A stretch of DNA of 64,000 nucleotides from Acidimicrobiaceae bacterium. Lineage in GTDB: Bacteria; Actinomycetota; Acidimicrobiia; Acidimicrobiales; Aldehydirespiratoraceae. Every line of letters starts with the position of its first letter. Positions within the stretch are counted from its first letter, which is position 1. The notes beneath the pieces are model-generated. The model did not search any database. It was not told the origin of the DNA and was given only the letters and a program-made list of their open reading frames with translations. Position numbers and translations under genes: made by a program. The stretch spans positions 18,301 through 82,300 of the forward strand of contig VXTM01000015.1 of NCBI GenBank assembly GCA_009837445.1, written 5' to 3'. Positions 11,717 through 38,711 of the stretch are shown here, in pieces.

Positions 11717-13054
11717 ATGAGCATCACCGACACCGCCCCCTCCGACTCCGCAGACACCGGCGCCGGCGCGGCATCGGCCGAGGCTGACCGGGCTGCCGAA
11801 CGGGTCCGCCGGCGCGAACCGTCGGCGGTGCTGCGCATGTCGGAGGCCGAGGCGGCCGCCATTGGGGGAGACCCCGACGACGCCGACGACGACGAGCTGG
11901 TGTTGCTCAACATGGGCCCGTCGCATCCCTCTACCCACGGTGTGCTGCGGTTGATGCTGGAACTCTCCGGCGAGACAGTGCTGCGCTCCAAGCCGGTGAT
12001 CGGCTACCTCCACACCGGCATGGAGAAGACGGGCGAGCAGCTCACCTACATGCAGGGCGGCACCAACGTGACCCGCATGGACTACGCCTCGCCGCTGTTC
12101 AACGAACTGGCGTTCTGCCTGGCCACGGAGCGGCTCCTGGGAATCGACGTGCCGGAGCGGGCGACATGGATCCGGATGCTCATGTGCGAGCTCAACCGGG
12201 TCAGCTCCCACCTGCTGTTCATGGCCACCAACGGCATGGACCTCGGGGCGGTGTCGATGATGATCTACGGGTGGCGCGAGCGCGAGGAAGTGCTGCGCTT
12301 CTTCGAGAAAGTCACCGGCCTGCGGATGAACCACAACTACATCCGGCCCGGCGGGGTGGCCGCCGACCTGCCCGCGGACTGGCGCACCGATGTGGCCCGG
12401 CTGATCGAGTTGATCGAGCCCCGCCTCACCGAGTACGACACCCTGCTCACCGGCCAGCCCATCTGGCGTGAGCGGCTCCAGGGAGTCGGGGTGATCAGCG
12501 CGGCCGAGGCCGTCGCGCTGGGGGCCACCGGGCCGCTCCTGCGGGGCGCGGGAATGGCTTGGGACCTGCGGCGCGACGAGCCCTACCTGTTCTATGACCA
12601 GGTCGACTTCGACGTCATCGTGGGCACCCACGGCGACTGCTACGACCGCTACGCCATACGGCTCAACGAGATCCGGGAGTCGCTGCGCATCGTCGCTCAG
12701 ATCATCGAGGCCATGCCCTCGGGCGACTACCGGGTCCAGGACAAGAAGGTGACCCCGCCGCCGCGGTCGCGCATCGACGCCTCGATGGAGGCTCTGATAC
12801 ACCACTTCAAGATCTTCACCGAAGGATTCAAGGTGCCGCCCGGCGAGGCTTACGCCGCGGTCGAGTCACCCCGTGGTGAGCTGGGCGTCTACCTGGTGAG
12901 CGACGGCACCTCGGTGCCGTACCGGGTGCATGTGCGGGCCCCGAGCTTCATCAACCTCCAGACCCTTCCACACCTGATGCAGAACGGCCTAATCGCTGAC
13001 GGTGTGGCCATCATCTCCTCGGTCGACCCGATCATGGGTGAGGTGGACCGGTGA
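11717..13054 (+). CDS. nuoD: NADH-quinone oxidoreductase subunit D (operon 1)
   Basis: NuoD is the 49-kDa-type subunit that forms the quinone-binding pocket with NuoB. The pocket His is visible in HPSTHGVLR and the pocket Tyr in QLTYMQGG. The 445-residue length includes an N-terminal extension of about 50 residues rich in Ala, Glu and Arg before the conserved LLNMGPSHP start. The last codons (GEVDR, stop) are echoed 140 bp downstream just before nuoE, on the far side of a palindromic element. Confidence 0.95.
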   Translation: MSITDTAPSDSADTGAGAASAEADRAAERVRRREPSAVLRMSEAEAAAIGGDPDDADDDELVLLNMGPSHPSTHGVLRLMLELSGETVLRSKPVIGYLHTGMEKTGEQLTYMQGGTNVTRMDYASPLFNELAFCLATERLLGIDVPERATWIRMLMCELNRVSSHLLFMATNGMDLGAVSMMIYGWREREEVLRFFEKVTGLRMNHNYIRPGGVAADLPADWRTDVARLIELIEPRLTEYDTLLTGQPIWRERLQGVGVISAAEAVALGATGPLLRGAGMAWDLRRDEPYLFYDQVDFDVIVGTHGDCYDRYAIRLNEIRESLRIVAQIIEAMPSGDYRVQDKKVTPPPRSRIDASMEALIHHFKIFTEGFKVPPGEAYAAVESPRGELGVYLVSDGTSVPYRVHVRAPSFINLQTLPHLMQNGLIADGVAIISSVDPIMGEVDR

Positions 13055-13190
13055 GGCCCGTTCGTCCCGGCGGCGGCGTCCTTCGTCCCGGCGACGGCCA
13101 CCGGCACTCGCTTGCTCGCACGGGCTTCGCCCTACTCGCTCGCAAGTCGAGCGCCGGTGTCCGCCGCCTGTCGATGCGCGAGGTCGACCG
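13055..13190. repeat. palindromic element between nuoD and nuoE (copy 1)
   Basis: This 136-bp stretch has nested inverted repeats: CACCGGC (13099-13105) with GCCGGTG (13153-13159), CTTGC (13111-13115) with GCAAG (13142-13146), and a GGGC-TTC-GCCC core (13122-13132). The 20 bases around the core match copy 2 at 19 positions. A 15-bp sequence with one mismatch, containing the nuoD stop, occurs at 13040-13054 and 13180-13194. An internal near-repeat TTCGTCCCGGCG lies at the left end. I see no gene in it. Confidence 0.8.
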
Positions 13191-13805
13191 GTGACGCTCA
13201 GTCCTGCCAACGAGGCGCTGGCTGCTGAGATCATTGGTTGGTTCCCCCGGCCCCGATCGGCTCTCATCCCGCTCCTGCACCTCGCCCAGGCTCAGGACGG
13301 GTACCTCACCGACGAGGCCATGCGCCGTGTCGGAGAACTGGTGGGGGCCACCCCGGCCGAGGTGAAGGGAACGGCCGGCTTCTACGAGATGTTCCGCTTC
13401 GAGCCGGTGGGCACCTACCTCGTGAACGTCTGCACCAACATCTCGTGCCTGCTGTGGGGCGGCGAGGAGCTGCTGGAGCACGCCTGCGAGTCGCTAGATG
13501 TGGAGGTGGGCGGCACCACCGATGACGGCATGTTCACCGTCGAGGAGGCGGAGTGCGTCGCGGCCTGCACCGAGGCCCCGTGCCTGCAGGTCAACTACCG
13601 CTATCGCGGCCGGGTAAGCCCAGCCGACTTCGACCGCCTGATCGAGGACCTGCGCGCCGGCCGGACCAGCATTGCCGGCCATGGTGTTCTGGCCCAGGTG
13701 CGTCAGTCGATACCGGCCGACCGCCTGGCCGGGGTGGTCCCGCCCGAGCAGGCCCGCGAGGCCCCGGTGTGGTTGGCGCGCAACGAAGCCGGAGCGAGCG
13801 GCTGA
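13191..13805 (+). CDS. nuoE: NADH-quinone oxidoreductase subunit E (operon 1)
   Basis: NuoE carries cluster N1a and belongs to the NADH-oxidising module. Ligand cysteines are in VCTNISC and ECVAAC. The protein starts TLSPANEALAAEI from a GTG at 13191, which lies within the duplicated nuoD-end motif; earlier in-frame codons run through the palindromic element. The length is 204 residues, with a C-terminal tail of about 40 residues beyond the thioredoxin-like fold. The stop overlaps the nuoF ATG. Confidence 0.93.
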   Translation: MTLSPANEALAAEIIGWFPRPRSALIPLLHLAQAQDGYLTDEAMRRVGELVGATPAEVKGTAGFYEMFRFEPVGTYLVNVCTNISCLLWGGEELLEHACESLDVEVGGTTDDGMFTVEEAECVAACTEAPCLQVNYRYRGRVSPADFDRLIEDLRAGRTSIAGHGVLAQVRQSIPADRLAGVVPPEQAREAPVWLARNEAGASG

Positions 13806-15262
13806 TGGGCGCGCCGTCCGCGACCGGCGGCTACCTCGCGCCCCTGCCGGACCGGTCGGCCGGTGCCGGCTATCTCCAGCACGCGCCGGGCTACGTGCTC
13901 AACGACGGGCCGAAGCTCATCACGGGCCGGTTCGTTCACGAGGACTCCTTCACGCTGGAGCGCTCGGTTGCCACCGGCGGCTACGAGGGGCTGAGGGCCG
14001 CGCTGGAGATGACGCCGGCTGCGGTGCACGACGAGGTGCGGGCCGCGACCCTGCTGGGCAGGGGAGGCGCCGGGTTCCCCGCCGGTGTCAAGTGGGGCTT
14101 CCTGCCCCCGGGCAAGCGCCCATACTACCTAGTAGTCAACGGCGACGAGAGCGAGCCGGGCACCTACAAGGACCGGCTGCTCATGGAGCGCGACCCCCAC
14201 CAACTCATCGAGGGGTGCCTCATCGCCTGCTACGCGCTGGGGCTGCAGCAGTGCTTCTTGTACGTGCGGGGCGAGATGGCCCTGGCCCAGGAGCGCATCG
14301 CGGCCGCCCTCAACGACGCCTACGAGGCCGGCTACGTGGGCCGCGAGATCTGCGGCAGCGACTTCTCGGTGGACATAGTGATGGCGTGGGGCGCGGGCGC
14401 CTACATCGTGGGCGAGGAGACCGCGCTGATCGAGAGCCTCGAGGGCCGCAGGGGCATGCCCCGCCTCAAGCCGCCCTACTTCCCGGCCGCAGTAGGCCTG
14501 TACGGGCAGCCGACCATCGTCAACAACGTCGAGACGCTCTCCAACCTGCCGTGGCTCATGGTCAACGGCTCCGAGGCCTACAAGGGACACGGCTCGGAGT
14601 CGTCACCGGGCACGCGGATGTTCGCGGTTTCGGGCCACCTCCGCCGCCCCGGGGTGTACGAGGTTGAGCACGGGGTGACCACCTTCCGGGAGCTGATCTA
14701 CGGCGACAACTTCTGCCGCGGCATCCGCGACGGCAACGAGCTGAAGATGTTCATCCCCGGCGGGGGCTCGGCGCCGTGGTTCTTCGAGGACCACTTGGAC
14801 CTGCCGCTGGAGGCTCGCCCGGTCGGTGCGGCCGGGTCGATGCTGGGATCGGGCGCCATCGTGATCATGGACGACACGACCGACGCGGTGCGGGCCGCCT
14901 GGCGGGTCGTGAAGTTCTTCGCCCGCGAGTCGTGCGGCAAGTGCACGCCGTGCCGGGAGGGAACGACCTGGCTGGAGCAGATCCTGCGGCGCATCCTCGA
15001 CGGGGAGGGGCGCCCGTCCGACATCGACCTGTTGCTTGACATCGGCGACAACATCAGCCCCGGCCCCTACCCGGTCGCCGCCCACGACGGTGCGGAGGCG
15101 GTGCCGTTCCCGCCCCGCCAGACCACGATCTGCCCGCTCGGGCCGTCGGCAGTGGCGCCGGTGGTGTCGACCATCCGCCGCTTCCGCCACGAGTACGAGG
15201 CCAAGATCACCCGCCGGGACCCCATCCCGATAGAGGTAGTCCCCGTCGGAGCAGCCCGATGA
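13805..15262 (+). CDS. nuoF: NADH-quinone oxidoreductase subunit F (operon 1)
   Basis: NuoF binds NADH and FMN and carries cluster N3. The glycine-rich nucleotide site reads GRGGAGFPAGVKW, and the FMN/NADH region has NGDESEPGTYKDR. The N3 ligands are in SCGKCTPCREG plus a late Cys in TTICPLGPSA. The 485-residue length is slightly above the usual 430-450. The ATG at 13805 overlaps the nuoE stop. A 139-bp gap with a palindromic element follows. Confidence 0.95.
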   Translation: MGAPSATGGYLAPLPDRSAGAGYLQHAPGYVLNDGPKLITGRFVHEDSFTLERSVATGGYEGLRAALEMTPAAVHDEVRAATLLGRGGAGFPAGVKWGFLPPGKRPYYLVVNGDESEPGTYKDRLLMERDPHQLIEGCLIACYALGLQQCFLYVRGEMALAQERIAAALNDAYEAGYVGREICGSDFSVDIVMAWGAGAYIVGEETALIESLEGRRGMPRLKPPYFPAAVGLYGQPTIVNNVETLSNLPWLMVNGSEAYKGHGSESSPGTRMFAVSGHLRRPGVYEVEHGVTTFRELIYGDNFCRGIRDGNELKMFIPGGGSAPWFFEDHLDLPLEARPVGAAGSMLGSGAIVIMDDTTDAVRAAWRVVKFFARESCGKCTPCREGTTWLEQILRRILDGEGRPSDIDLLLDIGDNISPGPYPVAAHDGAEAVPFPPRQTTICPLGPSAVAPVVSTIRRFRHEYEAKITRRDPIPIEVVPVGAAR

Positions 15263-15276
15263 CCGGCGCACGGCCG

Positions 15277-15379
15277 CCGGTCGGCGGGTCCTGTCGTCGA
15301 GCTCGGGACGACCGACACGGGCTTCGCCCTATTCGTCGGTCGTCCCGACTCGCCGCCACCCCCCGACCTCACCGGTCGC
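15277..15379. repeat. palindromic element between nuoF and nuoG (copy 2)
   Basis: A perfect 13-bp inverted repeat (15304-15316 with 15335-15347) encloses the GGGC-TTC-GCCC core at 15319-15329. Read on the minus strand, its two ends match copy 3 inside nuoG at 24 of 26 bases (GCGACCGG end) and 19 of 20 bases (CGACAGGACCCGCCG box). Only the hairpin arms differ between copies, and each pair remains self-complementary. No reading frame of note lies in 15263-15401. Confidence 0.88.
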
Positions 15380-15401
15380 ACAGGATCTCGGGGGCCGCGT
15401 C

Positions 15402-17978
15402 GTGACCTCGATACAGCCAGAGACGACAGTGGAGATCACGGTGGACGGCGCCGCGGTAGAGGCGCGCCCCGGCGAGATGCTGATAGCGGCCTGCGAGCGC
15501 AGCGGAACCTACATCCCCCGGTTCTGCTACCACTCGCGGATGAGCCCGGTGGGCATGTGCCGCATGTGCCTGGTGGAGGTGGACACCGGGCGGGGCTTCG
15601 GGCTGCAGCCCTCGTGCATGGTGCCGGTGAGCGAGGGCATGAAGGTGTCGACCGACTCCGAAGCGTCCAAGAAGGCCCAGGACGGCGTGCTGGAGTTCCT
15701 GCTCATCAACCACCCGCTCGACTGCCCCGTATGCGACAAGGGCGGCGAGTGCCCTCTGCAGGACCAGACCATGGCCTACGGCCCGGGCGAGACCCGCTTC
15801 GTGGAGGAGAAGCGCCACTTCCCGAAGCCCATCGCCATCAGCGAGACCGTCTTCCTCGACCGGGAGCGTTGCATCCTGTGCGACCGCTGCACCCGGTTCG
15901 CCGACGAGGTGGCCGGTGACGCCCTGATCCACTTCATGGGCCGCGGCAACCACACCGAGGTCAACACATTCACCGACGAGCCCTTCGCGTCGTACTTCTC
16001 GGGCAACACTGTTCAGATATGCCCGGTGGGCGCGCTCACCGCGGCTCCCTACCGCTTCAAGGCCCGTCCCTGGGACCTGACCGAGACGCTGTCCACCGCC
16101 TGGGTGGACAGCTTGGGGTCCCGGGTGGCGGTTCAGGCGTCCCGCAATCGGGTCCTGCGGGTGCTGGGAGCCGACGCCGATGCTGTCAACTGGGGCTGGC
16201 TGTCGGACAAGGAGAGATTCGGATTCGAGGCCCTCAACAGCGCCGAGCGCCTGTCCGCCCCGATGCTCAGGGACGCGGTGGACGGCGACAACCGCGAGTT
16301 CCGCCAAGCTGGATGGGGCGAGGCCCTCGAGGCGGTGGCCGGCGCGCTGAGGGCTACTTCACCCGAGCGCGTCGCGGTGCTAGGCGGGGCCAGGCTTACC
16401 AACGAGGCGCAGTACATGTGGGCCAAGCTCGCCAAGGGCGTGGTGGGCACCGACAACGTCGACGCCCAACTCGGCGACGGTCTGGACCCCCATCTCGTTC
16501 TCGGCCTGCCGCGGGCCACGATCGAGGATGCCTGCCGTCCCGGCGGCACGGTCCTGCTGGTCGGTCCCGATCCGAAGGAGGAACTGCCGACGCTGTACCT
16601 GCGGCTGCGCCACGCCATCGTCAACGACGGCGTGAAGCTGGTCGAGGTCACGCCGCACGCTACCGGCCTGTCGCATCTGGCCGAGCACTCCCTGCGTCCC
16701 AGCCCCGGTACGACCGCCCGGCTGGTGGCTGAGCTGGTGGATGCGGCCACCGGGTCCGGTCCGTCCGGGGATGACTCGGAGATCGAAGCGGCCGCCCGGA
16801 GCCTGCGGGAGGCCGGCGAGGGGGTGGTCGTGGTGCTGGGCCGCATGTCGCTGGCCGAGCCGGCCGACGTCGGTGACGCCGCGGCCCGCGAGCTGTCGAG
16901 GCTCCCGTCGGCGCGCTTCCTGCCCGCACTGCGCAGAGGCAACCTGATGGGGGCGCTCGAAGCCGGTCTGGCTCCGGGACTGGTTCCGGGCCGGATGCAG
17001 CTCGAAGATGTCGGCGACGGCGCGTCGCTGGCCGAGTCCTGGCCCCGGCTGCCTGATTCGTTGGGACTGGACGCGACCAGCGTCCTCAGGGCAGCCGCCC
17101 GCGGCGACATCGACGTGCTCGTGCTGCTGGGCTCGGATCCGCTCAACGACTTCGTCGACCGCGACCTGGCCTACCGGGGCCTTCGAGGTGCTGCTTGCGT
17201 CGTGGCCGTCGATCTGTTCGTCAACGACTCGGCTTCGCTCGCGGCCGGCGTCGTTCTGGCCGCCGCGGGCCCCACCGAGTGCGACGGCACGTTCACCAAC
17301 GTCGAGGGCCGGGTCAGCATCATGAGCCGCAAGGTGACGCCGCCGGGAACAGCGCGCGCCGACTGGATGATCGCGGCCGACCTGTGCGAGCGGCTGGAGC
17401 CGGGCTCGACAAGCGGCCTCGACTCCCCCCAAGCCATCAGAGCCGAACTAGCCCAGATTTCCCAAGCACACGCCCCGATCACAGAGGATGCCCTGACCCA
17501 GAATCCGATGGAAGGCGTACTCCTAGCCGGGACCGGGGCGACCGGAGAGGCCGGGGGGTGGCGCAGGTCCGGGCGGCCGACAATGGGGCGAAGCCCCGTC
17601 GGCCGGACGGAGCCTGCGACAGGACCCGCCGGCCGGGAGGACCCACTTGAGGAGCTACCCGAAGACGGCTTCCTGCTGATCACCACCCGCACCATGTACG
17701 ACGACGGCATGATGCTGCGCCACTGCCCCTCGAGCCGGGGCCTCGCGCCGGCTGCCACCGCCCGCATCAACCCGGCGGACACAGACCGCATCGACATCGA
17801 CGTAAGCACGGCCGTGCGGGTCGTCTCGGACTTCGGCCATATCGAGGCCACCCTGGCCACCGATTCAGGCGTGCCGGCCGGCTCGCTGAGGGTGGACTGG
17901 CTGGCACCGGGCGCGCCCGCCAACGCACTGATCGCCGCGGCCACCGACGTCACCGTGGTCAGCGTGGAGGCCCGATGA
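15402..17978 (+). CDS. nuoG: NADH-quinone oxidoreductase subunit G (operon 1)
   Basis: NuoG is the large iron-sulfur subunit of the NADH module. The N-terminal 2Fe-2S domain has CYHSRMSPVGMCRMC, then the His/Cys cluster (NHPLDCPVCDKGGECPLQ) and a ferredoxin-like cluster (CILCDRC with a distal ICPVGAL). A molybdopterin-oxidoreductase-like domain follows. At 858 residues it is in the normal range. Residues 713-745 are encoded exactly by a palindromic element and form a Gly/Arg/Pro-rich linker unlike the rest of the protein. The start is a GTG at 15402. Confidence 0.93.
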   Translation: MTSIQPETTVEITVDGAAVEARPGEMLIAACERSGTYIPRFCYHSRMSPVGMCRMCLVEVDTGRGFGLQPSCMVPVSEGMKVSTDSEASKKAQDGVLEFLLINHPLDCPVCDKGGECPLQDQTMAYGPGETRFVEEKRHFPKPIAISETVFLDRERCILCDRCTRFADEVAGDALIHFMGRGNHTEVNTFTDEPFASYFSGNTVQICPVGALTAAPYRFKARPWDLTETLSTAWVDSLGSRVAVQASRNRVLRVLGADADAVNWGWLSDKERFGFEALNSAERLSAPMLRDAVDGDNREFRQAGWGEALEAVAGALRATSPERVAVLGGARLTNEAQYMWAKLAKGVVGTDNVDAQLGDGLDPHLVLGLPRATIEDACRPGGTVLLVGPDPKEELPTLYLRLRHAIVNDGVKLVEVTPHATGLSHLAEHSLRPSPGTTARLVAELVDAATGSGPSGDDSEIEAAARSLREAGEGVVVVLGRMSLAEPADVGDAAARELSRLPSARFLPALRRGNLMGALEAGLAPGLVPGRMQLEDVGDGASLAESWPRLPDSLGLDATSVLRAAARGDIDVLVLLGSDPLNDFVDRDLAYRGLRGAACVVAVDLFVNDSASLAAGVVLAAAGPTECDGTFTNVEGRVSIMSRKVTPPGTARADWMIAADLCERLEPGSTSGLDSPQAIRAELAQISQAHAPITEDALTQNPMEGVLLAGTGATGEAGGWRRSGRPTMGRSPVGRTEPATGPAGREDPLEELPEDGFLLITTRTMYDDGMMLRHCPSSRGLAPAATARINPADTDRIDIDVSTAVRVVSDFGHIEATLATDSGVPAGSLRVDWLAPGAPANALIAAATDVTVVSVEAR
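17538..17636. repeat. palindromic element inside the nuoG coding sequence (copy 3)
   Basis: The 99-bp element starts on a nuoG codon boundary and supplies 33 codons without a stop. The nested stems are CGCAGG (17562-17567) with CCTGCG (17613-17618), CGGCCGAC (17574-17581) with GTCGGCCG (17598-17605), and GGGGC-GAA-GCCCC (17585-17597). The ends match copy 2 in inverted orientation. The encoded stretch is ATGEAGGWRRSGRP..., low in hydrophobic residues. Confidence 0.88.
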
Positions 17979-19966: not shown

Positions 19967-20516
19967 GGCGGTGTTCGCGGTCGCCGCGGTCCTGATGCTC
20001 GCCGGCGCCATCGGTGTGGTGGCCAGCCGCAACCCGGTCCATGCCGCGCTGTTCCTCGTCCAGACCCTGATCGGCGTGGCCCTCCTGTTCATCCTGAACG
20101 ACGCCCACTTCCTCGCCGCGGTGCAGGTGGTGGTCTACGCCGGGGCCATCGTGATCCTGTTCCTGTTCGTGATCATGCTGCTGGGCGTCGACAAGGCCGA
20201 GGAGTTGCGGGTCGAGCCCATCTTCGGGCAGCGACCGCTGGCGGCAGTCGTCGGCGCGGCCCTGGCTGCGGTGCTGGGCACGGTGATCCTCACCACCGCC
20301 GACGTGCTCAGCGGGATCCGGCAGAGCGGCGGCGAGCGGGCCCTCGACGGCGAGGCCACCGACATCGAGCGGATGGGCCGGGTGCTGTTCGGCGAGTTCG
20401 CCTTCGCGGTGGAGATCACGGCGGCCCTCCTGACCATCGCGGTGGTCGGCGCGGTGGTGCTGACCCGCCGGGCCGCCCGGTCCGACGGCGCACCGGCCGG
20501 GTCCGGTAGCGGGTGA
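19959..20516 (+). CDS. nuoJ: NADH-quinone oxidoreductase subunit J (operon 1)
   Basis: The 185-residue membrane protein has five hydrophobic helices and the conserved [17 protein letters not shown] segment, which contains the pi-bulge helix implicated in coupling. The ATG at 19959 overlaps the nuoI stop by eight bases; longer in-frame readings upstream lie inside nuoI. Confidence 0.92.
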
Positions 20517-20532
20517 CGGGGTCGGGCGAGCC

Positions 20533-20847
20533 ATGGACCTGAGCGGACTGACCACCGGCTGGTATCTGGCTCTGGCGGCCGCGCTGTTCATCATCGGGGC
20601 CGTCGGGCTGCTGGTGCGCCGGAACCCGCTGGTGATGTTCATGTGCGTCGAGCTGATGCTCAACGCGGTCAACGTGACCTTCGTGGCTCTAGGAGCAGGC
20701 CTCAACGACGTGGGCGGCCAGGTCGCGGTGTTCTTCGTGCTGGTGGTGGCGGCCACCGAAGTGGTCATCGGTCTCGCCCTAGTCGTGGCCATCAACCGGC
20801 GGCGCGCCGGGGCCACCGCCGACGACGTGTCGATGCTGAAGGGCTGA
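20533..20847 (+). CDS. nuoK: NADH-quinone oxidoreductase subunit K (operon 1)
   Basis: NuoK is a three-helix antiporter-like subunit. Both membrane glutamates needed for proton transfer are visible, in CVELMLNAVNV (helix 2) and AATEVVIGLAL (helix 3). The length of 104 residues is typical. Confidence 0.94.
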   Translation: MDLSGLTTGWYLALAAALFIIGAVGLLVRRNPLVMFMCVELMLNAVNVTFVALGAGLNDVGGQVAVFFVLVVAATEVVIGLALVVAINRRRAGATADDVSMLKG

Positions 20848-20848
20848 G

Positions 20849-22726
20849 ATGGGCGCGGCTGCTTGGCTCATCTGTGCGTTCCCGCTGGCCGGATTCGTAG
20901 TCCTGCTCGCTGCGGGCCGCCGTCTCGGCGAGCCCCGCGCCGGCTGGTTGGCCACCGCGGCCATGGCCGGCTCGTTCGTGTCCGCGGCGGCGGTGTTCGC
21001 CGGCCTCATGTCGCGGGACCCGGTCGATCGCCGCTTCGTTGTGACCCTCTTCGAATGGGTGCCGGCCGGAGACTTCTCGGTGGACGCCGGCCTTCTCGTC
21101 GACCCGCTGTCGGTGACCATGGCTCTGTTCGTCACCGGCGTGGGTGCGCTCATACACCTCTACGCCATCGGCTACATGCACGGCGACCGCGACTTCTCGA
21201 AGTTCTTCATCTACCTCAACCTGTTCGCCTTCTCGATGCTGGTGCTGGTGCTGGGCGACAACCTGGCGCTCACCTTCCTCGGCTGGGAGGGGGTGGGCGT
21301 CTGCTCCTACCTGCTCATCTCGTTCTGGTTCACCGAGGAGGCCAACGCCACCGCGGGCAAGAAGGCGTTCGTCACCAACCGGGTCGGCGACTGGGGCTTC
21401 ATGCTGGCCATGTTCTGGGCCTTCGGTGCGCTGGGCTCGGTGCGGTACCTCGACCTGTTCGGTCACGCCGGATCGCTCTCGTCGAGCACCGCCACCGCCA
21501 TCGTGGTCCTGCTCTTCGTCGGCGCAGCCGGCAAGTCGGCGCAGCTGCCGCTGTACATCTGGCTGCCCGACGCCATGGCCGGTCCCACCCCGGTCTCCGC
21601 GCTGATCCACGCGGCCACCATGGTCACCGCGGGCGTCTACCTGATGGTCCGGGTCAACCCGCTGATCGCCGCGGCCGACGCTTGGGCGCCGGACATGATC
21701 GCCTGGGTCGGGGTGGCCACCGCCCTGTTCGCGGCGGGTGCGGCCATGGCGCAGAACGACATCAAGAAGGTGCTGGCCTACTCCACCATCAGCCAACTGG
21801 GCTACATGATGCTGGCCGTCGGCACGGGCGCGTACGTGGCCGCCATCTTCCACATGGTCACCCACGCCTTCTTCAAGGCGCTGCTGTTCCTGGGTTCGGG
21901 ATCGGTGATCCACGCCCTCGACGGCGACCAGGACATGCGCCGCTACGGGGCGCTGCGGGCCGCCATGCCGATCACCTCGATCACCTTCATCGTCGGCTGG
22001 CTGGCCATCGCCGGGGTGCCGCCGTTCGCGGGCTTCTGGTCCAAGGACGAGATCCTCGCCTACGCCTTCGACGCCAATCCGGCTCTGTGGCTGGTCGGCC
22101 TGGTCACCGCGGTGCTCACCGCCTTCTACATGAGCCGCCTGGTGTTCATGACCTTCTACGGCGAGGCCCGCTTCGGCGACGAGCAGCATCCCCACGAGCC
22201 CTCGCCGCTCATGACCGCACCGCTGGTGGCTCTGGCGGGGGCCGCGGTGGTGGCCGGAGTGATGAATCTCCCCTTCACCAAGGACCTGCACTTCCTGGGT
22301 ACATGGCTTAAGCCGTCGCTGTTCGGCAACGAGGCCCACCTCGAGATCGGCGGCGGGGTGCTGTGGCTGCTGGCGCTGGTCGCGGTGGTCGGGGCCGCAG
22401 CCGGGATCGCCGGAGCGGTCGCGGTGTACCTGCGAGGCCGGCTGCCGGTCAGCATGGTGGAGCGGCCGGCTGCTGCCCGGGCGTTCTATGTGGACGAAGC
22501 GGTGACCCGCTTCGTGGGTGGACCCGGCCGGCGGGCCTTCGACCTGGTGGCCGCCTTCGACTCGAAGGTCGTCGACGGGGCCGTCGACGGGGTGGGCCGC
22601 TCGGTGCGGGCCGGCGGCACCGCTCTGCGGCGGGTGCAGTCGGGCTTCGTGCGCTTCTACGCGCTGCTGACCGCGGTCGGCGCGGTGGCGCTGCTGGTGT
22701 GGTTCCTGTCGCGGGCGAGCCTGTAG
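20849..22726 (+). CDS. nuoL: NADH-quinone oxidoreductase subunit L (operon 1)
   Basis: NuoL is the distal proton-pumping subunit with a lateral C-terminal helix. The sequence shows the Mrp-type core: GWEGVGVCSYLLISFW with the key Glu, IWLPDAMAGPTPVSALIHAATMVTAGVYL, and the AYSTISQLGYMM helix. The 625-residue length is normal. The ATG at 20849 follows nuoK directly. Confidence 0.95.
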   Translation: MGAAAWLICAFPLAGFVVLLAAGRRLGEPRAGWLATAAMAGSFVSAAAVFAGLMSRDPVDRRFVVTLFEWVPAGDFSVDAGLLVDPLSVTMALFVTGVGALIHLYAIGYMHGDRDFSKFFIYLNLFAFSMLVLVLGDNLALTFLGWEGVGVCSYLLISFWFTEEANATAGKKAFVTNRVGDWGFMLAMFWAFGALGSVRYLDLFGHAGSLSSSTATAIVVLLFVGAAGKSAQLPLYIWLPDAMAGPTPVSALIHAATMVTAGVYLMVRVNPLIAAADAWAPDMIAWVGVATALFAAGAAMAQNDIKKVLAYSTISQLGYMMLAVGTGAYVAAIFHMVTHAFFKALLFLGSGSVIHALDGDQDMRRYGALRAAMPITSITFIVGWLAIAGVPPFAGFWSKDEILAYAFDANPALWLVGLVTAVLTAFYMSRLVFMTFYGEARFGDEQHPHEPSPLMTAPLVALAGAAVVAGVMNLPFTKDLHFLGTWLKPSLFGNEAHLEIGGGVLWLLALVAVVGAAAGIAGAVAVYLRGRLPVSMVERPAAARAFYVDEAVTRFVGGPGRRAFDLVAAFDSKVVDGAVDGVGRSVRAGGTALRRVQSGFVRFYALLTAVGAVALLVWFLSRASL

Positions 22727-24379
22727 ATGACCGCTACTGCCTCAGCCTCCTTCCCGGCCGTGCTCACCGTGCTGGTGCTGGTGCCCGCCGTCGGCGCGCT
22801 GGTGCTGGCGGCCATGCCGCGCGCCCGTTCCGATCTGCTCAAGCCGGTGGCGCTGCTGGCATCGGTCCTTCCGGCCGCTCTGGCCGTGTGGCTGCTCTCC
22901 ACCTTCGACGCCGGCGCCGCGGGCCTGTTCCAGTTCTCGGACCGGTACACCTGGATCGAGGGGCTGGGCGTCTCGTGGCATGTCGGGGTGGACGGGCTGT
23001 CGCTGTTCCTGGTGGTGATGACCGCGCTGATGTTCCCGCTGGCCATCGTCGGCGTGGACCCGGAGCACTCGCCCAAGCCCTACTACGCCTGGCTGCTGAT
23101 CCTGGAGACCGGTTGCCTGGGCACTTTCGTGGCCCTCGACCTGATCATGTTCTTCGTCTTCTTCGAGATCGTGCTGGTGCCCATGTACTTCCTCATCGGC
23201 GGCTGGGGCCACGGTCGCCGGGCCTACGCGGCCACGAAGTTCTTCCTGTTCACCATGTTCGGCTCGGCCATCATGCTGGTGGCGATCGTGGCGCTGGCCT
23301 TCCTGCACGCCTCGGCGTCCGGTGGCGGCGTGAGCTTCGACCTCATCGGGATCGCCGAGAACCAGGTGCTGGCCACCAACACGGCCCGCTGGCTGTTCCT
23401 GGCCTTCGCGCTGGCCTTCGCGGTGAAGGTGCCGCTGTTCCCGGTGCACACGTGGCTGCCCGACGCCCACACCAACGCGCCCACCGCGGGCTCGGTGATC
23501 CTGGCCGCGGTGATGCTGAAGCTCGGCACCTACGGCTTGGTGCGATTCGGCCTGTACCTGTTCCCGGAGGCTTCGGTGTACTTCGCGCCGCTGATGGTGA
23601 CCCTCGGCGTGATCGGGATCATCTACGGCGCTATCGCGGCGGCCATGCAGCGCGACCTCAAGCGCTTGGTGGCGTACTCGTCGGTGGCTCACCTCGGCTT
23701 CATCGTGATCGGCACCTTCGCGCTCAACACCGAGGGTCTCACCGGCGGCGTGCTGCAGATGGTCAACCACGGCGTGTCCACCGGCGCGCTGTTCCTGCTG
23801 GTGGGCATGATCTACGAGCGCCGCCACACCCGCGAGATCTCCGACCTGGGCGGTCTCCAGAAGCCGGCGCCGGTGATGGCCGCCGTATTCACGGTGGTGA
23901 TGCTGTCGTCGGTGGGGCTGCCCGGGCTCAACGGCTTCGTCGGTGAGCTGCTGGTGCTGCTGGGCGCCTTCAACGCCCACCGCTGGTGGGCGGTCGTTGC
24001 CGCCGCGGGTGTGATCCTGGCCGCCGTCTACCTGCTGTGGGCCTACCAGAGGGTGTTCCACGGACCGGCCTCGGGGGCTAACGCCGAGATGCCCGACATG
24101 CGCTGGCGCGAGGGCCTGGTGATGGTGCCGTTCCTGGCCGCCATCGTGTTCATGGGCGTCTACCCCAAGCCGGTGATCGACCGGGTCGAGCCCGCCGTGG
24201 ACGCGATAATCGCCCACGTCGAGGACAATGTCGCCGGCTTCGCGGAGCCCGCGGCCGATGTGCAGCCCCCGGTGAGCCTCGACGACCTGGTCAAGTCCAC
24301 CGGCTACGACGACCACGGCACTGAGGGCCAGAGCAGCCGCGAAGACGGCGGAGCCGGCCACGACGGGGGCGGCGGCTGA
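22727..24379 (+). CDS. nuoM: NADH-quinone oxidoreductase subunit M (operon 1)
   Basis: The 550-residue antiporter-like pump subunit shows FFEIVLVPMYFLIGGWG with the conserved Glu, PVHTWLPDAHTNAP, and RLVAYSSVAHLGF. It carries a polar C-terminal tail of about 60 residues. It abuts nuoL without a gap, and its last base is shared with the nuoN start. Confidence 0.95.
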   Translation: MTATASASFPAVLTVLVLVPAVGALVLAAMPRARSDLLKPVALLASVLPAALAVWLLSTFDAGAAGLFQFSDRYTWIEGLGVSWHVGVDGLSLFLVVMTALMFPLAIVGVDPEHSPKPYYAWLLILETGCLGTFVALDLIMFFVFFEIVLVPMYFLIGGWGHGRRAYAATKFFLFTMFGSAIMLVAIVALAFLHASASGGGVSFDLIGIAENQVLATNTARWLFLAFALAFAVKVPLFPVHTWLPDAHTNAPTAGSVILAAVMLKLGTYGLVRFGLYLFPEASVYFAPLMVTLGVIGIIYGAIAAAMQRDLKRLVAYSSVAHLGFIVIGTFALNTEGLTGGVLQMVNHGVSTGALFLLVGMIYERRHTREISDLGGLQKPAPVMAAVFTVVMLSSVGLPGLNGFVGELLVLLGAFNAHRWWAVVAAAGVILAAVYLLWAYQRVFHGPASGANAEMPDMRWREGLVMVPFLAAIVFMGVYPKPVIDRVEPAVDAIIAHVEDNVAGFAEPAADVQPPVSLDDLVKSTGYDDHGTEGQSSREDGGAGHDGGGG

Positions 24380-25878
24380 TGGGATCCGTGCTGGCCCAGC
24401 TCGAGCCCGTGGTCACGCCGGCCGTCGACTGGGCGGGTCTGCTGCCGGTGCTCCTGCCGGCCGCGGGAGCGCTGGTGCTGCTGATGGTCCGCTCGCTGGT
24501 GCCGAGCCGGCTGCTGCCGGCCGGGCTCGACGCGCTCTGGACCTTCGCGGTGGCGGCGGCGGGGTTCGTCGCCGTCGTGGTCCTGTGGCAGCGCGACGGT
24601 GAGGTCACCGCATTCGGGGACCAGCTCGTGATGGACGGCCTGGCCCTGTTCACTGCTGCGGTCGTCTTCGGCTCGGTGGCGCTGGCCGCCCCCACGCTGC
24701 CCCGGTACTGCGAGCGAGTGGGCATCGACTCCGCTGAGCTCTGCGTGCTGACCCTGCTGGCCGCGGCCGGGGCGGTGGTGATGGCCGGGGCCGCCGATCT
24801 GATCGTGCTGTTCCTGGGGCTGGAGACGATGTCCATCGCGGCCTACGTGATGGCCGCCCTCAACCTGCGCCGGCTGGAGTCGCTGGAGGCGGGTCTCAAG
24901 TACTTCGTGCTGGGCGCCTTCTCCACCGCGTTCCTGCTGTACGGGATCGCCCTCGTCTACGGAGCGACCGGCACGACCAGCCTCGACGGGATCGCCGGCT
25001 ATCTGGACACCTTCCTGGTGCTGCGCGACGGGATGCTGTTGGCCGGCCTGGCGATGCTCCTGGTCGGCCTGGGGTTCAAGGTGGCCGCGGTGCCGTTCCA
25101 CGCCTGGGCGCCCGACGTGTACGTGGGCGCGCCCACGCCGGTGACCGCTCTGATGGCCTCAGCGGTGAAGGCGGCCGGGTTCGCGGCGCTCATCCGGGTG
25201 TTCGTGGATGCGCTGGGGGTGCGGGCCGACGACTGGCAGCCGGTCGTGTTCGCCCTGGCCTGCGCAACGCTGGCGGTCGGGTCGGTGCTGGCCGCAGTTC
25301 AGAGCGACGCCAAGCGCATCCTGGCCTACTCGTCCATCTCGCACGCCGGGTTCATCCTCGTCGGCGTGCAGGCGGCCTCCGATTCCGGCGTGGCCGCAGT
25401 GCTGTTCTACCTGGCCGCCTACGCGGTGATCGCGGTCGGGAGCTTCACCGTGGTGGCCGTCCTGTCGGGTCGGACGGACGACCGCACCGGCCTGGCCGCG
25501 CTGGCCGGGCTCGGAAGCCGCAAGCCGGCCCTGGCCCTGGGGCTGACGATCCTGCTGCTGGCTCAGGCCGGCGTGCCGTTCACGTCGGGCTTCGTGGCCA
25601 AGTTCTCGGTCATCTCCGCGGCCGTGGAGGCCCGCTCGTACTGGCTGGCCATAGTGGCGATGGTCAGCGCGGTGGTCGCCGCCTTCGCCTACCTGCGGGT
25701 GGTGGTGGCCATGTACTTCGGCGACCCAGGCACCGACGGCTCCGACGCCGACGACGCCTCGCCCGCGATGGGTCTGGGAGCAGCATCCGTGATCGTGGTA
25801 GCCGTGCTGTTCACCGTCGCCGCCGGCATCGTCCCCGGCCTGCTGGAGTCCCTGTCCAGCACCGCGGCGGGACTGTGA
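24379..25878 (+). CDS. nuoN: NADH-quinone oxidoreductase subunit N (operon 1)
   Basis: The 499-residue antiporter-like subunit closes the first complex I operon. Characteristic blocks are LGLETMSIAAYVMAAL, PFHAWAPDVYVGAPTPVTA and ILAYSSISHAGFI. No terminator hairpin is obvious in the 36 bp before the next gene, so some read-through into the PhyH gene is possible. Confidence 0.95.
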   Translation: MGSVLAQLEPVVTPAVDWAGLLPVLLPAAGALVLLMVRSLVPSRLLPAGLDALWTFAVAAAGFVAVVVLWQRDGEVTAFGDQLVMDGLALFTAAVVFGSVALAAPTLPRYCERVGIDSAELCVLTLLAAAGAVVMAGAADLIVLFLGLETMSIAAYVMAALNLRRLESLEAGLKYFVLGAFSTAFLLYGIALVYGATGTTSLDGIAGYLDTFLVLRDGMLLAGLAMLLVGLGFKVAAVPFHAWAPDVYVGAPTPVTALMASAVKAAGFAALIRVFVDALGVRADDWQPVVFALACATLAVGSVLAAVQSDAKRILAYSSISHAGFILVGVQAASDSGVAAVLFYLAAYAVIAVGSFTVVAVLSGRTDDRTGLAALAGLGSRKPALALGLTILLLAQAGVPFTSGFVAKFSVISAAVEARSYWLAIVAMVSAVVAAFAYLRVVVAMYFGDPGTDGSDADDASPAMGLGAASVIVVAVLFTVAAGIVPGLLESLSSTAAGL

Positions 25879-33938: not shown

Positions 33939-34474
33939 CGCCGTCGGGCGTGCTGGCCGCGTCGGCGTCGGGTGGTGACCTCTTCGTCGCGCAGAACGTC
34001 TTCTTCGGCATGATCGCGCTGGTGATGGTCGTCTCGGCCATCCGCTGCGTCACCACCCGCAACGTGGTGCACGCCGCGCTGTGGCTGGTGCTGGTCCTGG
34101 CCGGCGCGGCCGCCCAGTTCATCCTTCTCGGCTCGGAGTTCGTGGCCGTCACCCAGGTGCTGGTCTACATCGGCGCCATCATCGTGCTGTTCCTGTTCGG
34201 CATCATGCTCACCAAGGCGTCGATGGGCGACGACGACTCGGTGGCCGGCGAGAAGCGGCTGATGGCCAGCCTGGTGGCCGTGCTGCTGGCCGTGGTCATG
34301 GGCATCGCGCTGATCGACAGCTACTCCGACACCCGGGTGGTGATCGACGAGCCCCAGCGCTTCGGAGCGGTGTCCGACGCCATCTTCAGCCAGTACATAG
34401 TGGCCTTCGAGGCAGTTTCTGTGCTGCTGCTGGCCGCCCTGATCGGGGCCATCGTCGTGGCCCGCAAGGAGTAG
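33935..34474 (+). CDS. nuoJ2: complex I subunit J (operon 2)
   Basis: The 179-residue protein has five hydrophobic helices and the [19 protein letters not shown] segment typical of NuoJ. The ATG overlaps the nuoI2 stop (ATGA). Confidence 0.92.
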
Positions 34475-34482
34475 GGGCGGCC

Positions 34483-34782
34483 ATGATCCTCAACCAGTTC
34501 CTCCTACTCGCCGCGGTGCTGTTCTGCATAGGCGTGTACGGCGTGCTGGCCCGGCGCAACGGGATCATGGTCCTGATGTCGGTGGAGATCATCCTCAACT
34601 CCGTCAACATCAACCTGGTCGCGTTCGGAGCCTTCCGCGACAACGTCGCCGGCGAGGTGTTCGCCCTGTTCGTGATTGCGGTGGCCGCGGCCGAGGTGGG
34701 CATCGGGCTGGCCATCGTGCTGCTCATCTACCGCAACCGTCGAAGCATCGACCTCACTGAGGCCGATCTCCTTAAGGGCTGA
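34483..34782 (+). CDS. nuoK2: complex I subunit K (operon 2)
   Basis: The 99-residue, three-helix protein retains both membrane glutamates ([13 protein letters not shown] and [13 protein letters not shown]). The ATG at 34483 is 8 bp after the nuoJ2 stop; an earlier in-frame start would lie inside nuoJ2. Confidence 0.93.
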
Positions 34783-34794
34783 GGGAGCTTCGCC

Positions 34795-36972
34795 GTGGGC
34801 CTGACCGCTACGACCATCGCCGCACTAGCAGCCGAGGAGTCGGTGGCTTACGGCCCCAGCTCCACCGAGAGCGCCGGGTTCTTCCTCGACTACGCCTGGC
34901 TGATCCCGCTGCTGCCCGCGCTGTCGTTCGCCGGGATCCTGCTGTTCGGCAAGCGCATGCGCCGCCAGGGCTCCGAACTGGGGATCGCGGCGGTCGCCGG
35001 TTCCTTCGTGCTGGCCGTCGGGGCGGTGGTCACCTGGATCGGCCACCGCGACGACGCCCACGAGGGCGTGCAGGCTGTGCACCGCACGGTTGGGTGGCTG
35101 CGCTCGGGCGGCGTCGAATACGACGCCGGGATCCTGCTGGACGGGCTTTCGGTGATGATGCTGTTCGTGGTGACCGCGGTGTCGCTGCTGGTGCACGTCT
35201 ACAGCACCGACTACGTGTCCGGCGACGCCCGCTACACCCACTTCTTCGCCTTCCTGAGCCTGTTCACGGCGGCGATGCTGTTCTTCGTCCTCAGCGACAA
35301 CCTGCTGCAGATGATCGTCGGCTGGGAGCTGGTCGGCGTCTGCTCGTTCGTGCTGATCGGCCACTGGTGGGAGCACAAGGAGAACTCGGACGCTGCCCTC
35401 AAGGCCTTCTTCACCAACCGGGTGGGCGACATCGGCCTCCTGGTGGGCGTGTCGATCCTGTTCTTCGCCGCGGGCGGCACCTTCGACACGCTCACCCTCA
35501 GCGAGCGCATCAACGCCGGCGAGGTGAGCCACACCGCGCTGGTGGCCGCGTCGCTGTGCCTGCTGGCCGCGGTCATGTCCAAGTCCGGCCAGTTCATCCT
35601 GCACACCTGGCTGCCCGACGCCATGGCCGGACCCACACCGGTGTCGGCGCTCATCCACGCCGCCACCATGGTGGTGGCCGGCATCTACATGGTGGCCCGC
35701 CTGTACCCGGTGTTCTGGGAGGGCATGTCGATCGGCGGGTCCAGCATCAACGTGCTGGCCCTGGTTGGGGCGGTCACCCTGCTGTTCGGGGGGATGCTGG
35801 CCTTCACCCAGAACGACATCAAGAAGGTGCTGGCCTACTCCACCGTCAGCCAGCTCGGCTACATGGTCATGGCGCTCGGGGTGGGGGCCTGGACCGCGGC
35901 CATGTTCCACCTGTTCACCCACGCCTTCTTCAAGGCCTGCCTGTTCCTGGGGTCGGGCTCGGTGAGCCACGCGGTGCACAGCTTCGACATGAAGAAGGAC
36001 ATGGGCGGGCTGCGCAAGGTGATGCCCCACACCTACCGCACGTTCCTAGTGGCGACGATCGCGCTGATGGGCCTGCCCCCGCTGGCCGGGTTCTGGTCCA
36101 AGGACGAGATCCTGGCCGGCACCGGCGGCTGGGGCCTGTTCGGCGGCACCCACGGCAACGGCAACTACACCCTCATGCTGGTGATGGGCATGGTGGGCGC
36201 GGCGGTGACCGCGGCCTACATGACCAGGGTCGTGTACCTCACCTTCTTCGGCACGTACCGGGGCCACGGCCATCCCCACGAGTCGGGGCCCCGCATCCTG
36301 GTGCCGCTGTACGTTCTGGCCTTCTTCGCGGTGGTGGCCGGGCTGTTCAACATGCCCAAGGGCTTCCAGCTGTGGCCCGAGGCGTGGCAGGAGCGCTTCG
36401 GCCACTACGTAGAGCCGGTGGCGGCCTACTTCCCGGCCATCGGCCACGCCAAGCCGAGCTGGTCGCTGGCCATCGCCTCCACCCTGGTAGCCCTGACCGG
36501 CGCGGGCCTGGCCTGGCGCTACTACTTCAAGGGCGTGCAGAGCCGCTCGGAGGCGGCAGGCGAGCCGCTCACCGAGATCGGTGACGGACTGGTGTCGCGA
36601 GGCGGGCTGCCCAAGGCGGTGCACACGACGCTGGTCAACAAGTACTACTTCGACCACCTCTACACCGGCGTGATCGTCAAGGCGGTGAAGGGGCCGCTGG
36701 CCAAGGCCACCTACTGGTCGAACCAGCGGATCATCGACGGCATCGTCAACGAGGCGGGCCGCAAGTCGGTGGCTGCTGGCCAGGCCGTGTACGACCACGT
36801 CGACCAGACCCTCATCGACCGCGTCATCGTCGACGGCTCGGGTCGGGCCTCCGACGGCGCCGGCGAGAGCCTGCGGACCATGCAGACCGGCAAGGTCCAG
36901 CAGTACGCCGCCATCCTGTTCGCGGCCGCCACCGTGCTGGCCGGCGTCTTCATCCTCGTGCTGTCGATCTGA
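34795..36972 (+). CDS. nuoL2: complex I subunit L (operon 2)
   Basis: The pump subunit has GWELVGVCSFVLIGHWW, TWLPDAMAGPTPVSALIHAATMVVAG and AYSTVSQLGYMVM. At 725 residues it is about 100 longer than NuoL of operon 1. The extra length lies mostly in a longer C-terminal amphipathic region and a polar segment (about residues 575-700). The lateral helix region is therefore expected to be present. The GTG at 34795 is 12 bp after nuoK2. Confidence 0.94.
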   Translation: MGLTATTIAALAAEESVAYGPSSTESAGFFLDYAWLIPLLPALSFAGILLFGKRMRRQGSELGIAAVAGSFVLAVGAVVTWIGHRDDAHEGVQAVHRTVGWLRSGGVEYDAGILLDGLSVMMLFVVTAVSLLVHVYSTDYVSGDARYTHFFAFLSLFTAAMLFFVLSDNLLQMIVGWELVGVCSFVLIGHWWEHKENSDAALKAFFTNRVGDIGLLVGVSILFFAAGGTFDTLTLSERINAGEVSHTALVAASLCLLAAVMSKSGQFILHTWLPDAMAGPTPVSALIHAATMVVAGIYMVARLYPVFWEGMSIGGSSINVLALVGAVTLLFGGMLAFTQNDIKKVLAYSTVSQLGYMVMALGVGAWTAAMFHLFTHAFFKACLFLGSGSVSHAVHSFDMKKDMGGLRKVMPHTYRTFLVATIALMGLPPLAGFWSKDEILAGTGGWGLFGGTHGNGNYTLMLVMGMVGAAVTAAYMTRVVYLTFFGTYRGHGHPHESGPRILVPLYVLAFFAVVAGLFNMPKGFQLWPEAWQERFGHYVEPVAAYFPAIGHAKPSWSLAIASTLVALTGAGLAWRYYFKGVQSRSEAAGEPLTEIGDGLVSRGGLPKAVHTTLVNKYYFDHLYTGVIVKAVKGPLAKATYWSNQRIIDGIVNEAGRKSVAAGQAVYDHVDQTLIDRVIVDGSGRASDGAGESLRTMQTGKVQQYAAILFAAATVLAGVFILVLSI

Positions 36973-37041
36973 CCCCCTGTGACCGAGATCGTGACCGACC
37001 CTGCAACCCCCGCCGAAACCAGGAGCCTCTAGGACCGAACC

Positions 37042-38589
37042 ATGACCGACTTTCTCAATGATTGGGGCCTCACCCTCGTCACCTTCGTCCCGCTGATCGG
37101 GGCGCTGGTGATGATGGCGGTCCCCGCCGCCGAGGAGAAGATGCTCAAGCAGCTGGCCCTGCTGTCGTCGCTGGTGGCGATGGTGATCGGCGGGCTGCTG
37201 ATGCTCGACTTCGACTACGGCAACGCCGGGGCCCTCCAGTACGTGGTGGACGCTCGTTGGATCGAGGTCATCAACAGCCGCTACATCCTCGGGCTGGACG
37301 GGATCTCGCTGCCGCTCATGGCGCTCACCCTGGTGGTGGTGCCGCTTTGCGTCATCTACTCGTGGGACCACATACCCGAGCCCGGCAACCCCAAGGCGTT
37401 CTTCATCCTGATGCTCATCCTCGAGACGGGCATGGTGGGCACCTTCGTGGCCCAGGATCTGATCCTGTTCTTCGTGTTCTTCGAGGTCGTGCTGCTGCCC
37501 ATGTTCTTCATGATCGCGGTGTGGGGCGGCGAGAACCGGCGCTACGCCTCGATCAAGTTCTTCCTGTTCACGCTGTTCGGCTCGGCGCTGATGCTGCTGT
37601 CGTTCCTGGCGCTGTTCTTCCTGTCCACCGACCCGGCCACCGGCGAGTCGCTGCGGACCTTCGACATGCGGGTGCTGACCGAGGTGGCCGGCGCCGGCAT
37701 CCTGGGCTCCACCCAGATCTGGATCTTCGCCGGCATGTTCATCGGCTTCGGGGTGAAGGTGCCGATGTTCCCGTTCCATACCTGGCTGCCGGACGCCCAT
37801 ACCGAGGCGCCCACGGTGGGGTCGGTGATCCTGGCCGCGATCCTGTTGAAGCTCGGCACTTACGGGTTCGTGCGAATCGCGGTGCCCATGCTCCCCGAAG
37901 GCGCCGAGTCGTGGGCGCCGTGGATCGGCCTGCTGGCGGTGATCGGTATCATCTACGGCGCGCTGGGATGCCTGGCCCAGACCGACATGAAGCGCCTCAT
38001 CGCGTTTTCGTCGGTGGCCCACATGGGCTTCGTGATGCTCGGCATCGCCACCCTCACCGACTTCGGGATCAACGCGGCCATCTTCGGCATGGTCGCCCAC
38101 GGGATCATCACCGGGATGCTGTTCTTCCTGGCCGGCTCGGTGAAGGAGCGCTACCACACCCTCGAGATCCGCCGCCTGGGCGGGATGCTGGTCCAGGCGC
38201 CCCGGATGGGCTGGATCCTGGGTTTCTGCTCGATGGCGTCGCTGGGGCTTCCGGGCCTGGCCGGCTTCTGGGGCGAGTTCCCGGCCATCCTGTCGGCCTA
38301 CTCGCCGGCGGAGGGCCTGCCGGTCGAGACCTTCCGGACCTACATGGTGGTGGCCGCGGTGGGCACCGTCCTGGCCGCCGGCTACCTGCTGTGGCTGCTC
38401 CAGCGCACCGCTATGGGGGCGCCCAGAGAGGAGTTCGCCGACAGCGACGACATCGTCGACGTGACCCGCCTCGAGTGGATCTCATGGGCGCCGCTGCTGG
38501 TGGGGATCATCCTGTTCGGGGTGGCGCCCGGCCTGATCTTCGACGTCACCGACCCGGCCGTGGTCGGCCTGCTGGCGTCCGGAGGCTGA
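37042..38589 (+). CDS. nuoM2: complex I subunit M (operon 2)
   Basis: The 515-residue pump subunit has FFEVVLLPMFFMIAVWG, PFHTWLPDAHTEAP and RLIAFSSVAHMGF. It follows nuoL2 after 69 bp with an AGGAGCC site upstream of the ATG. It is followed by a 122-bp non-coding gap containing inverted repeats. Confidence 0.94.
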   Translation: MTDFLNDWGLTLVTFVPLIGALVMMAVPAAEEKMLKQLALLSSLVAMVIGGLLMLDFDYGNAGALQYVVDARWIEVINSRYILGLDGISLPLMALTLVVVPLCVIYSWDHIPEPGNPKAFFILMLILETGMVGTFVAQDLILFFVFFEVVLLPMFFMIAVWGGENRRYASIKFFLFTLFGSALMLLSFLALFFLSTDPATGESLRTFDMRVLTEVAGAGILGSTQIWIFAGMFIGFGVKVPMFPFHTWLPDAHTEAPTVGSVILAAILLKLGTYGFVRIAVPMLPEGAESWAPWIGLLAVIGIIYGALGCLAQTDMKRLIAFSSVAHMGFVMLGIATLTDFGINAAIFGMVAHGIITGMLFFLAGSVKERYHTLEIRRLGGMLVQAPRMGWILGFCSMASLGLPGLAGFWGEFPAILSAYSPAEGLPVETFRTYMVVAAVGTVLAAGYLLWLLQRTAMGAPREEFADSDDIVDVTRLEWISWAPLLVGIILFGVAPGLIFDVTDPAVVGLLASGG

Positions 38590-38628
38590 CCTGTGCCAAT
38601 GCACTCCGCCTTCGCCTCCAGCCTGTCC

Positions 38629-38687
38629 CGAAATTGGCGACCAATTGGGTACTGCACACCCGGAATCCGCACCAATTTCGTGGTCGC
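38629..38687. repeat. interleaved inverted repeats between nuoM2 and nuoN2
   Basis: CGAAATTGG (38629-38637) pairs with CCAATTTCG (38672-38680), and GCGACCA (38637-38643) pairs with TGGTCGC (38681-38687). The order a-b-a'-b' permits a pseudoknot in RNA. A competing local hairpin AATTGG-CGA-CCAATT lies at 38632-38646. The AT content is higher than in the flanking genes. It could be an attenuator, a processing site or a decayed repeat. Confidence 0.55.
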
Positions 38688-38711
38688 TAGCCGAAGCGGA
38701 ACCGACCGCTG

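Follow-up and report, generated by a model that had tools for sequence, protein, structure and literature searches.

We analysed a stretch of 64,000 nucleotides from an Acidimicrobiaceae bacterium (GenBank assembly GCA_009837445.1, contig VXTM01000015.1, positions 18,301 to 82,300; hereafter the window, and its genome G000), in whose nuo operon a short palindromic element occurs three times, once inside the reading frame of nuoG, the gene for subunit G of respiratory complex I. The features at this locus are as follows.

13088..13169, minus strand: type-II element in the nuoD/nuoE interval, with different ends and the same GGGCGAAGCCC tip
15277..15379, minus strand: type-I element in the nuoF/nuoG interval (core 15277-15369, leader 15370-15379)
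15402..17978, plus strand: nuoG, complex I subunit G, 858 amino acids
17538..17636, plus strand: type-I element inside nuoG (leader 17538-17547, core 17548-17636), encoding NuoG residues 713-745

Alignment of the two type-I copies shows palindromes related in inverted orientation, as an earlier note on this sequence had described, with 24 of 26 identical bases in the 5′ end box and 19 of 20 in the 3′ end box. On either strand, both copies fold more stably than every one of 200 dinucleotide shuffles (z from −5.0 to −5.8). The earlier note took the element to be about 100 bp long; both copies are indeed present, but when copies from across the genome are aligned, what repeats is a core of ~80-93 nt, which in type I has the form AGGCCGGGGGGTGGC...GGGCGAAGCCC...GACAGGACCCGCCGGCCGG and measures 89 nt (AGGCCGG...CCGGCCGG) or 93 nt (AGGTCGG...CCGACCGG) in the window copies. 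A 10-nt leader, GCGACC-N4, lies upstream of the core in part of the copies, and because its conservation is weak over 75 de-duplicated copies (kept from 98 after those with similar flanks were dropped), 99 bp is not the unit length of the family. The elements have a GC content of 0.69-0.85, and their outer stem, AGGCCGG/CCGGCC, forms terminal inverted repeats. A repeat finder set to a minimum length of 40 with gapless extension did not list the window copies.

The copy inside nuoG starts at 17538, which is the start of codon 713 (17538 − 15402 = 712 × 3), and is 99 bp long and free of stops. It falls between the Molybdopterin (residues 283-664) and Molydop_binding (757-849) domains, in a linker whose length varies across the order. 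Its proposed reading as a Gly/Arg/Pro-rich linker agrees with the open frame and with the use of the same site in relatives; the insert would be translated as part of NuoG and presumably is harmless there. Chain 8e9g_G, which we take to be mycobacterial, seemingly has 22 residues here against 67 in this NuoG, the alignment behind the gap being non-significant. An AlphaFold model of NuoG from a five-row alignment had a mean predicted local distance difference test score (pLDDT) of 31 and was not used.

We compared NuoG at 30 loci, including the window's own, 16 from the same genus and 14 from outside it. The insert is found in none of the 14 loci from outside the genus. Neither outcome that would have counted against the earlier note, the same linker without palindromes in unrelated Acidimicrobiia or a lack of further genomic copies, was observed. 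Within the genus, 12 of the 16 NuoG sequences carry it at the same site. Nine of these, including the diverged G015, have the form seen in the window (type A), and three (G004, G013 and G002) have the same ends around another hairpin (type B). The NuoG of G008 retains a short in-frame remnant from which the hairpin is gone, and G001, G005 and G011 have no insert. In G002, NuoG is divided between contigs; the 3′ part has type B and, behind it, in-frame repeats of the element's 3′ end, which read as DGPAGRED. Type B is found in two separate clades of NuoG gene trees (extra upstream sequence in some rows, such as G006 and G022, was removed by the column filter), which implies that the interior was changed at least twice or that the site was hit repeatedly. 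Elsewhere in NuoG, at residues ~445-475, extra residues occur in G003, G008, G013 and G015; as far as seen, these are unrelated to the palindrome.

The element is not confined to the nuo operon. In G000 (3.9 Mb, 52 contigs) model R1 gave 40 matches, 11 of which were the opposite strand of a match already counted, leaving 29 distinct places; the type-II model R2 adds three more, for at least 32 distinct copies. The nuoG 99-mer alone finds 18 matches at E < 1e-7 in the whole genome, the query itself counted, and further pieces of the element found by BLAST at contig ends show that elements break the assembly. A lineage-specific coding linker of NuoG, without mobile origin and palindromic by chance or composition, would be in keeping with the variable length of this linker across the order. 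However, the same ends and fold recur at ~30 other places and the interiors are shared with other genomic copies; these genome-wide copies refute such a linker, to which we give practically no credence.

It is also evident that the element family is found in three families of one order, Acidimicrobiales. Among 61 genomes, R1 was positive in 17, comprising 15 of the 16 same-genus genomes (1-45 matches each at E ≤ 0.01, where the opposite strand of one copy may be counted; G011 is the exception), G018 of another genus in the same family (42 matches) and G029 of another family (12 matches). Under stricter filters, eight of 298 genomes drawn from the order were positive, three belonging to the same genus and four to a third family, besides G029. 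Copies in G018 have the same end boxes and a different interior. Among 17 listed matches from G029 and the third family, the 15 that were read have GGGTGGC (14 matches) or AGGTGGC (one match), and all 15 keep GACAGGACCC, a core that is partly selected for since R1 was used to find these matches; their outer stems change on both sides. The paired fraction of 27 outer stems, including seven that are out of register, is 0.82, compared with a mean of 0.74 and a maximum of 0.81 in shuffles. In a collection of 84,980 species, both end boxes were found together in at least 113 stretches; the matches listed (80 stretches) come from 13 assemblies, all titled Acidimicrobiia, several of them presumably sponge-associated. 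No match was found in the viral contigs, phages and plasmids searched for the element. Our literature searches found no such element named for Acidimicrobiia.

The conservation of the insert is not that of a peptide alone. Third codon positions of the insert are 96.9% identical in 28 pairs among eight type-A species, chosen by a peptide pattern to which the diverged G015 does not conform, whereas the N-terminal part of nuoG has 71.9%; the highest of 658 equal-length segments, at 90.5%, still falls short of the insert. With G015 included (36 pairs), third positions are 93.2% versus 72.0% identical (0 of 659 segments), and in the pairs with G015 alone 80.5% versus 72.0%. Similarly, orthologous copies in the nuoF/nuoG interval are 94.6-98.9% identical (mean 97.1%, six pairs) and those in the nuoD/nuoE interval 91.1-98.7% (mean 94.9%, 21 pairs), values raised by search patterns that fix part of the element ends and obtained from seven species (G001 and G015 were found and left out of the pairs). 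This identity stays high even in pairs whose nuoG third positions are ~65% identical. These third-position and intergenic identities indicate that what is held constant, whether by selection or by homogenisation, is the nucleic acid and not the linker peptide alone. In the covariation analysis 97.2% of cells are paired, and eight pairs changed on both sides, compared with a shuffle mean of 3.7 (0 of 500) and at most two when slid, a count uncorrected for kinship.

Such conservation in coding and intergenic copies alike is what a functional RNA, or a hairpin for mRNA processing or stability whose copies were duplicated and kept for a role in the transcript, should show. A nearly constant GGGTGGC / GACAGGACCC core enclosed by outer stems with changes in both strands of the stem, and the presence of three copies within one operon, would also suit it. 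However, orthologous sites are patchily empty, a search of Rfam 15 with 4 kb of the window and eight loci found no family match (the best were one match each at E of 0.46 and 0.32, far under gathering scores), and the nuo copies (three in one operon) occur in both orientations. Neither type-I window copy is followed by a T-run, which makes them unlike intrinsic terminators. We thus regard a transcript role as the origin of these copies as rather unlikely.

Occupancy of the two intergenic sites varies among relatives. The nuoF/nuoG element is present at five of 17 loci, including the window's, twice in G001, and is absent from G007, a close relative of G000; the 12 empty loci share one short junction. 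Among 16 nuoD/nuoE loci, nine have the complete element and one a remnant, with a single junction in G013 and other extra sequence in G003 and G018. The junctions in the window are as follows.

13040..13054, plus strand: 15-bp direct repeat, left copy (GAGGTGGACCGGTGA), which includes the nuoD stop
13180..13194, plus strand: right copy (GAGGTCGACCGGTGA, 14/15), holding the likely nuoE start GTG
15260..15264, plus strand: duplicated nuoF/nuoG junction, left side, TGACC with the nuoF stop
15402..15407, plus strand: duplicated nuoF/nuoG junction, right side, GTGACC with the nuoG start

The stop/start overlap of nuoD and nuoE thus occurs on either side of the element, with 14 of 15 bases identical, which leaves both genes intact; the 15-bp repeat is probably a target-site duplication. 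The nuoF/nuoG duplication is the same in kind and less clear. Over 78 copies, after removal of those with similar flanks, nine had flanking repeats scoring at least 9, a modest enrichment over the 2.4 expected.

Other sites also differ in occupancy or interior. At C37_43342 the interior differs between G000 and G007 and the site is empty in G006, and G000 and G009 have different interiors at C6_32115. A comparison of the closely related species G010 and G014 shows one copy missing where little else has changed and one that is 5′-truncated; other copies are gone together with neighbouring sequence. In locus L109 (G000 C21:53504-63199) a type-III element faces a type-I element head to head three times, across similar spacers of 43-44 nt, and two of these pairings recur in G009. 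The 3′ end box is repeated after an element in G002 C81 (L297), G010 L264, L096 and L098.

Repeats that are small hairpins in many copies, with tandems and head-to-head pairs, recall the repetitive extragenic palindromic (REP) sequences and bacterial interspersed mosaic elements (BIMEs). REPs depend on the REP-associated tyrosine transposase (RAYT), a Y1 enzyme. The Y1 transposase family PF01797, however, was found in none of the 16 same-genus genomes, nor in G018 or G029 (the third family, f35, was not searched), though it matched five of 14 control genomes including E. coli. Mobilisation of REP/BIME-type repeats by such an enzyme is therefore highly improbable here.

Copying through an RNA intermediate with target-primed insertion, as in retroposons, would account for the 5′-truncated copy in G014 and for the 15-bp repeat at nuoD/nuoE. 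It could also explain solitary 3′ ends: in an end-box scan of 100 loci (one mismatch allowed; overlapping loci counted apart, so with some double counting) we found 106 full copies, 11 solitary 5′ ends and 17 solitary 3′ ends, 14 of the latter within 200 nt after a full copy. However, few sites have long direct repeats, and the reverse transcriptase family RVT_1 had no match in 14 of the 16 same-genus genomes, including G000, G001, G007, G009, G010, G012 and G014 (G018 was not searched). With one match each in G002 and G006 alone, a reverse transcriptase was rejected as the mobiliser, and a retroposon-like origin seems improbable. The scan, over loci of mostly 8 kb, found no larger element with the same ends bracketing a gene-sized stretch.

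The earlier note likened the nuoG insert to Rickettsia palindromic elements (RPEs), short palindromic repeats of several families, some of which lie in frame in metabolic genes. The element described here is likewise a short palindrome in many copies. A habit of invading genes in frame, however, is not supported. In a codon-usage test of 104 copies, not de-duplicated between species and using the window's codon usage, five copies have the coding frame continuing on either side of them (four in nuoG and one in a DUF222-HNH gene), and for the other 99 the test shows no gene reading through; the five are a lower bound because at least one known nuoG copy (L214) was missed. The DUF222-HNH case is an in-frame insertion in G018, where the DUF222 match spans the insert and HNH follows. 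A GNAT gene at C21:82620 in G000 has an element at its beginning, where the G007 counterpart has an ATG start; the 3′ box of the element may supply a GTG start, the nearest in-frame start seen. Matches with a type-B interior are many in long open frames; the six that were read have frames disfavoured by codon usage, and these six were left uncounted as in-frame insertions. Nor are the cores kept open in the NuoG frame, which is open in 62 of 109 distinct type-I cores (57%, below the 69% of composition shuffles). One of the antisense frames lacks stops in 107 of these 109 cores (98%, against 78% in composition shuffles). The comparison with RPEs was made by features, not with RPE sequences; the element is RPE-like at the NuoG site but differs in two of the features tested, with rare in-gene copies and an unprotected frame, and is thus classed as a new family.

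Other known repeats are matched in part. The enterobacterial RU-1, RU-2 and RU-3, intergenic repeats of 103-168 bp, likewise contribute to a protein sequence at some of their locations (PMC2759123). They belong to another phylum, however, and in the present element the interiors differ at one coding site across species. Miniature inverted-repeat transposable elements (MITEs) are also short, non-autonomous and structure-forming, with terminal inverted repeats. MITEs are typically AT-rich (PMC10969869), whereas these elements are GC-rich. Moreover, no parent transposon was found in the loci scanned, target duplications are clear at nuoD/nuoE, suggestive at nuoF/nuoG and weak overall, and the end-box sequence changes while pairing persists.

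Two further repeats lie in the window. At positions 1-88 a 44-bp unit with a GCTTCGCTCACGGGC-type hairpin stands twice in exact tandem, apparently a different short repeat. Positions 19985-25188 and 34015-39509 are direct repeats ~14 kb apart with 70-79% DNA identity; each probably holds one of two paralogous sets of nuo genes of the antiporter-like kind, whose names we infer.

Taken together, these results make it probable that the elements are non-autonomous palindromic mobile repeats of Acidimicrobiales, one of which was inserted into the NuoG linker and later inherited, exchanged or trimmed. An apparently non-autonomous repeat of ~80-93 nt would have entered the interdomain linker early in the history of the genus, and would have been tolerated because linker length varies anyway and the nuoG form keeps the frame without a stop. 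Descendants would then have inherited the site, with the interior hairpin swapped for that of another family member in at least two lineages, perhaps by recombination between copies via their shared ends or by repeated insertion at the same spot, and with the hairpin removed in one lineage. Some enzyme acting in trans may mobilise the repeats.

Several observations weigh against this interpretation. The searches made found no autonomous relative or mobilising gene. None of the 78 copies stands out as a clean, recent insertion between sharply defined target duplications, and one of the best-scoring flanking repeats is a tandem copy. The empty nuoG sites of G001, G005 and G011 align too poorly to show the sequence before insertion, and G001 is nested in one NuoG tree and basal in the other, these being gene trees. 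First codon positions in the pairs with G015 are less conserved in the insert than in the gene (83% versus 87%), and further pair types, one of five covariation measures, number 12 compared with 11.6 in shuffles (268 of 500). The genomes are drafts.

A wider possibility, which we hold as tentative and doubtful, is that of a new superfamily of mobile folded strands, the strand being itself the substrate of mobilisation, in which a nearly constant asymmetric internal loop (GGC / GACAGG) is recognised, the outer stem and inner hairpin are free to vary if paired, and the inner hairpin serves as an exchangeable cassette at fixed sites, including a coding one.

The differing interiors at fixed sites, together with the absence of a Y1 transposase from the genomes searched, point to a mode of spreading for which we found no known counterpart. 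Nucleotide-level conservation and interior exchange in nuoG could not have been seen from the window alone. Judged by features, these repeats are a new family, and their coding site in NuoG, where a dispersed palindrome appears to have become part of a core respiratory subunit, is well documented. Because sister species keep, swap, trim or lack the element at this one coding site, the question of how a repeat becomes a protein segment can be tested by comparison.
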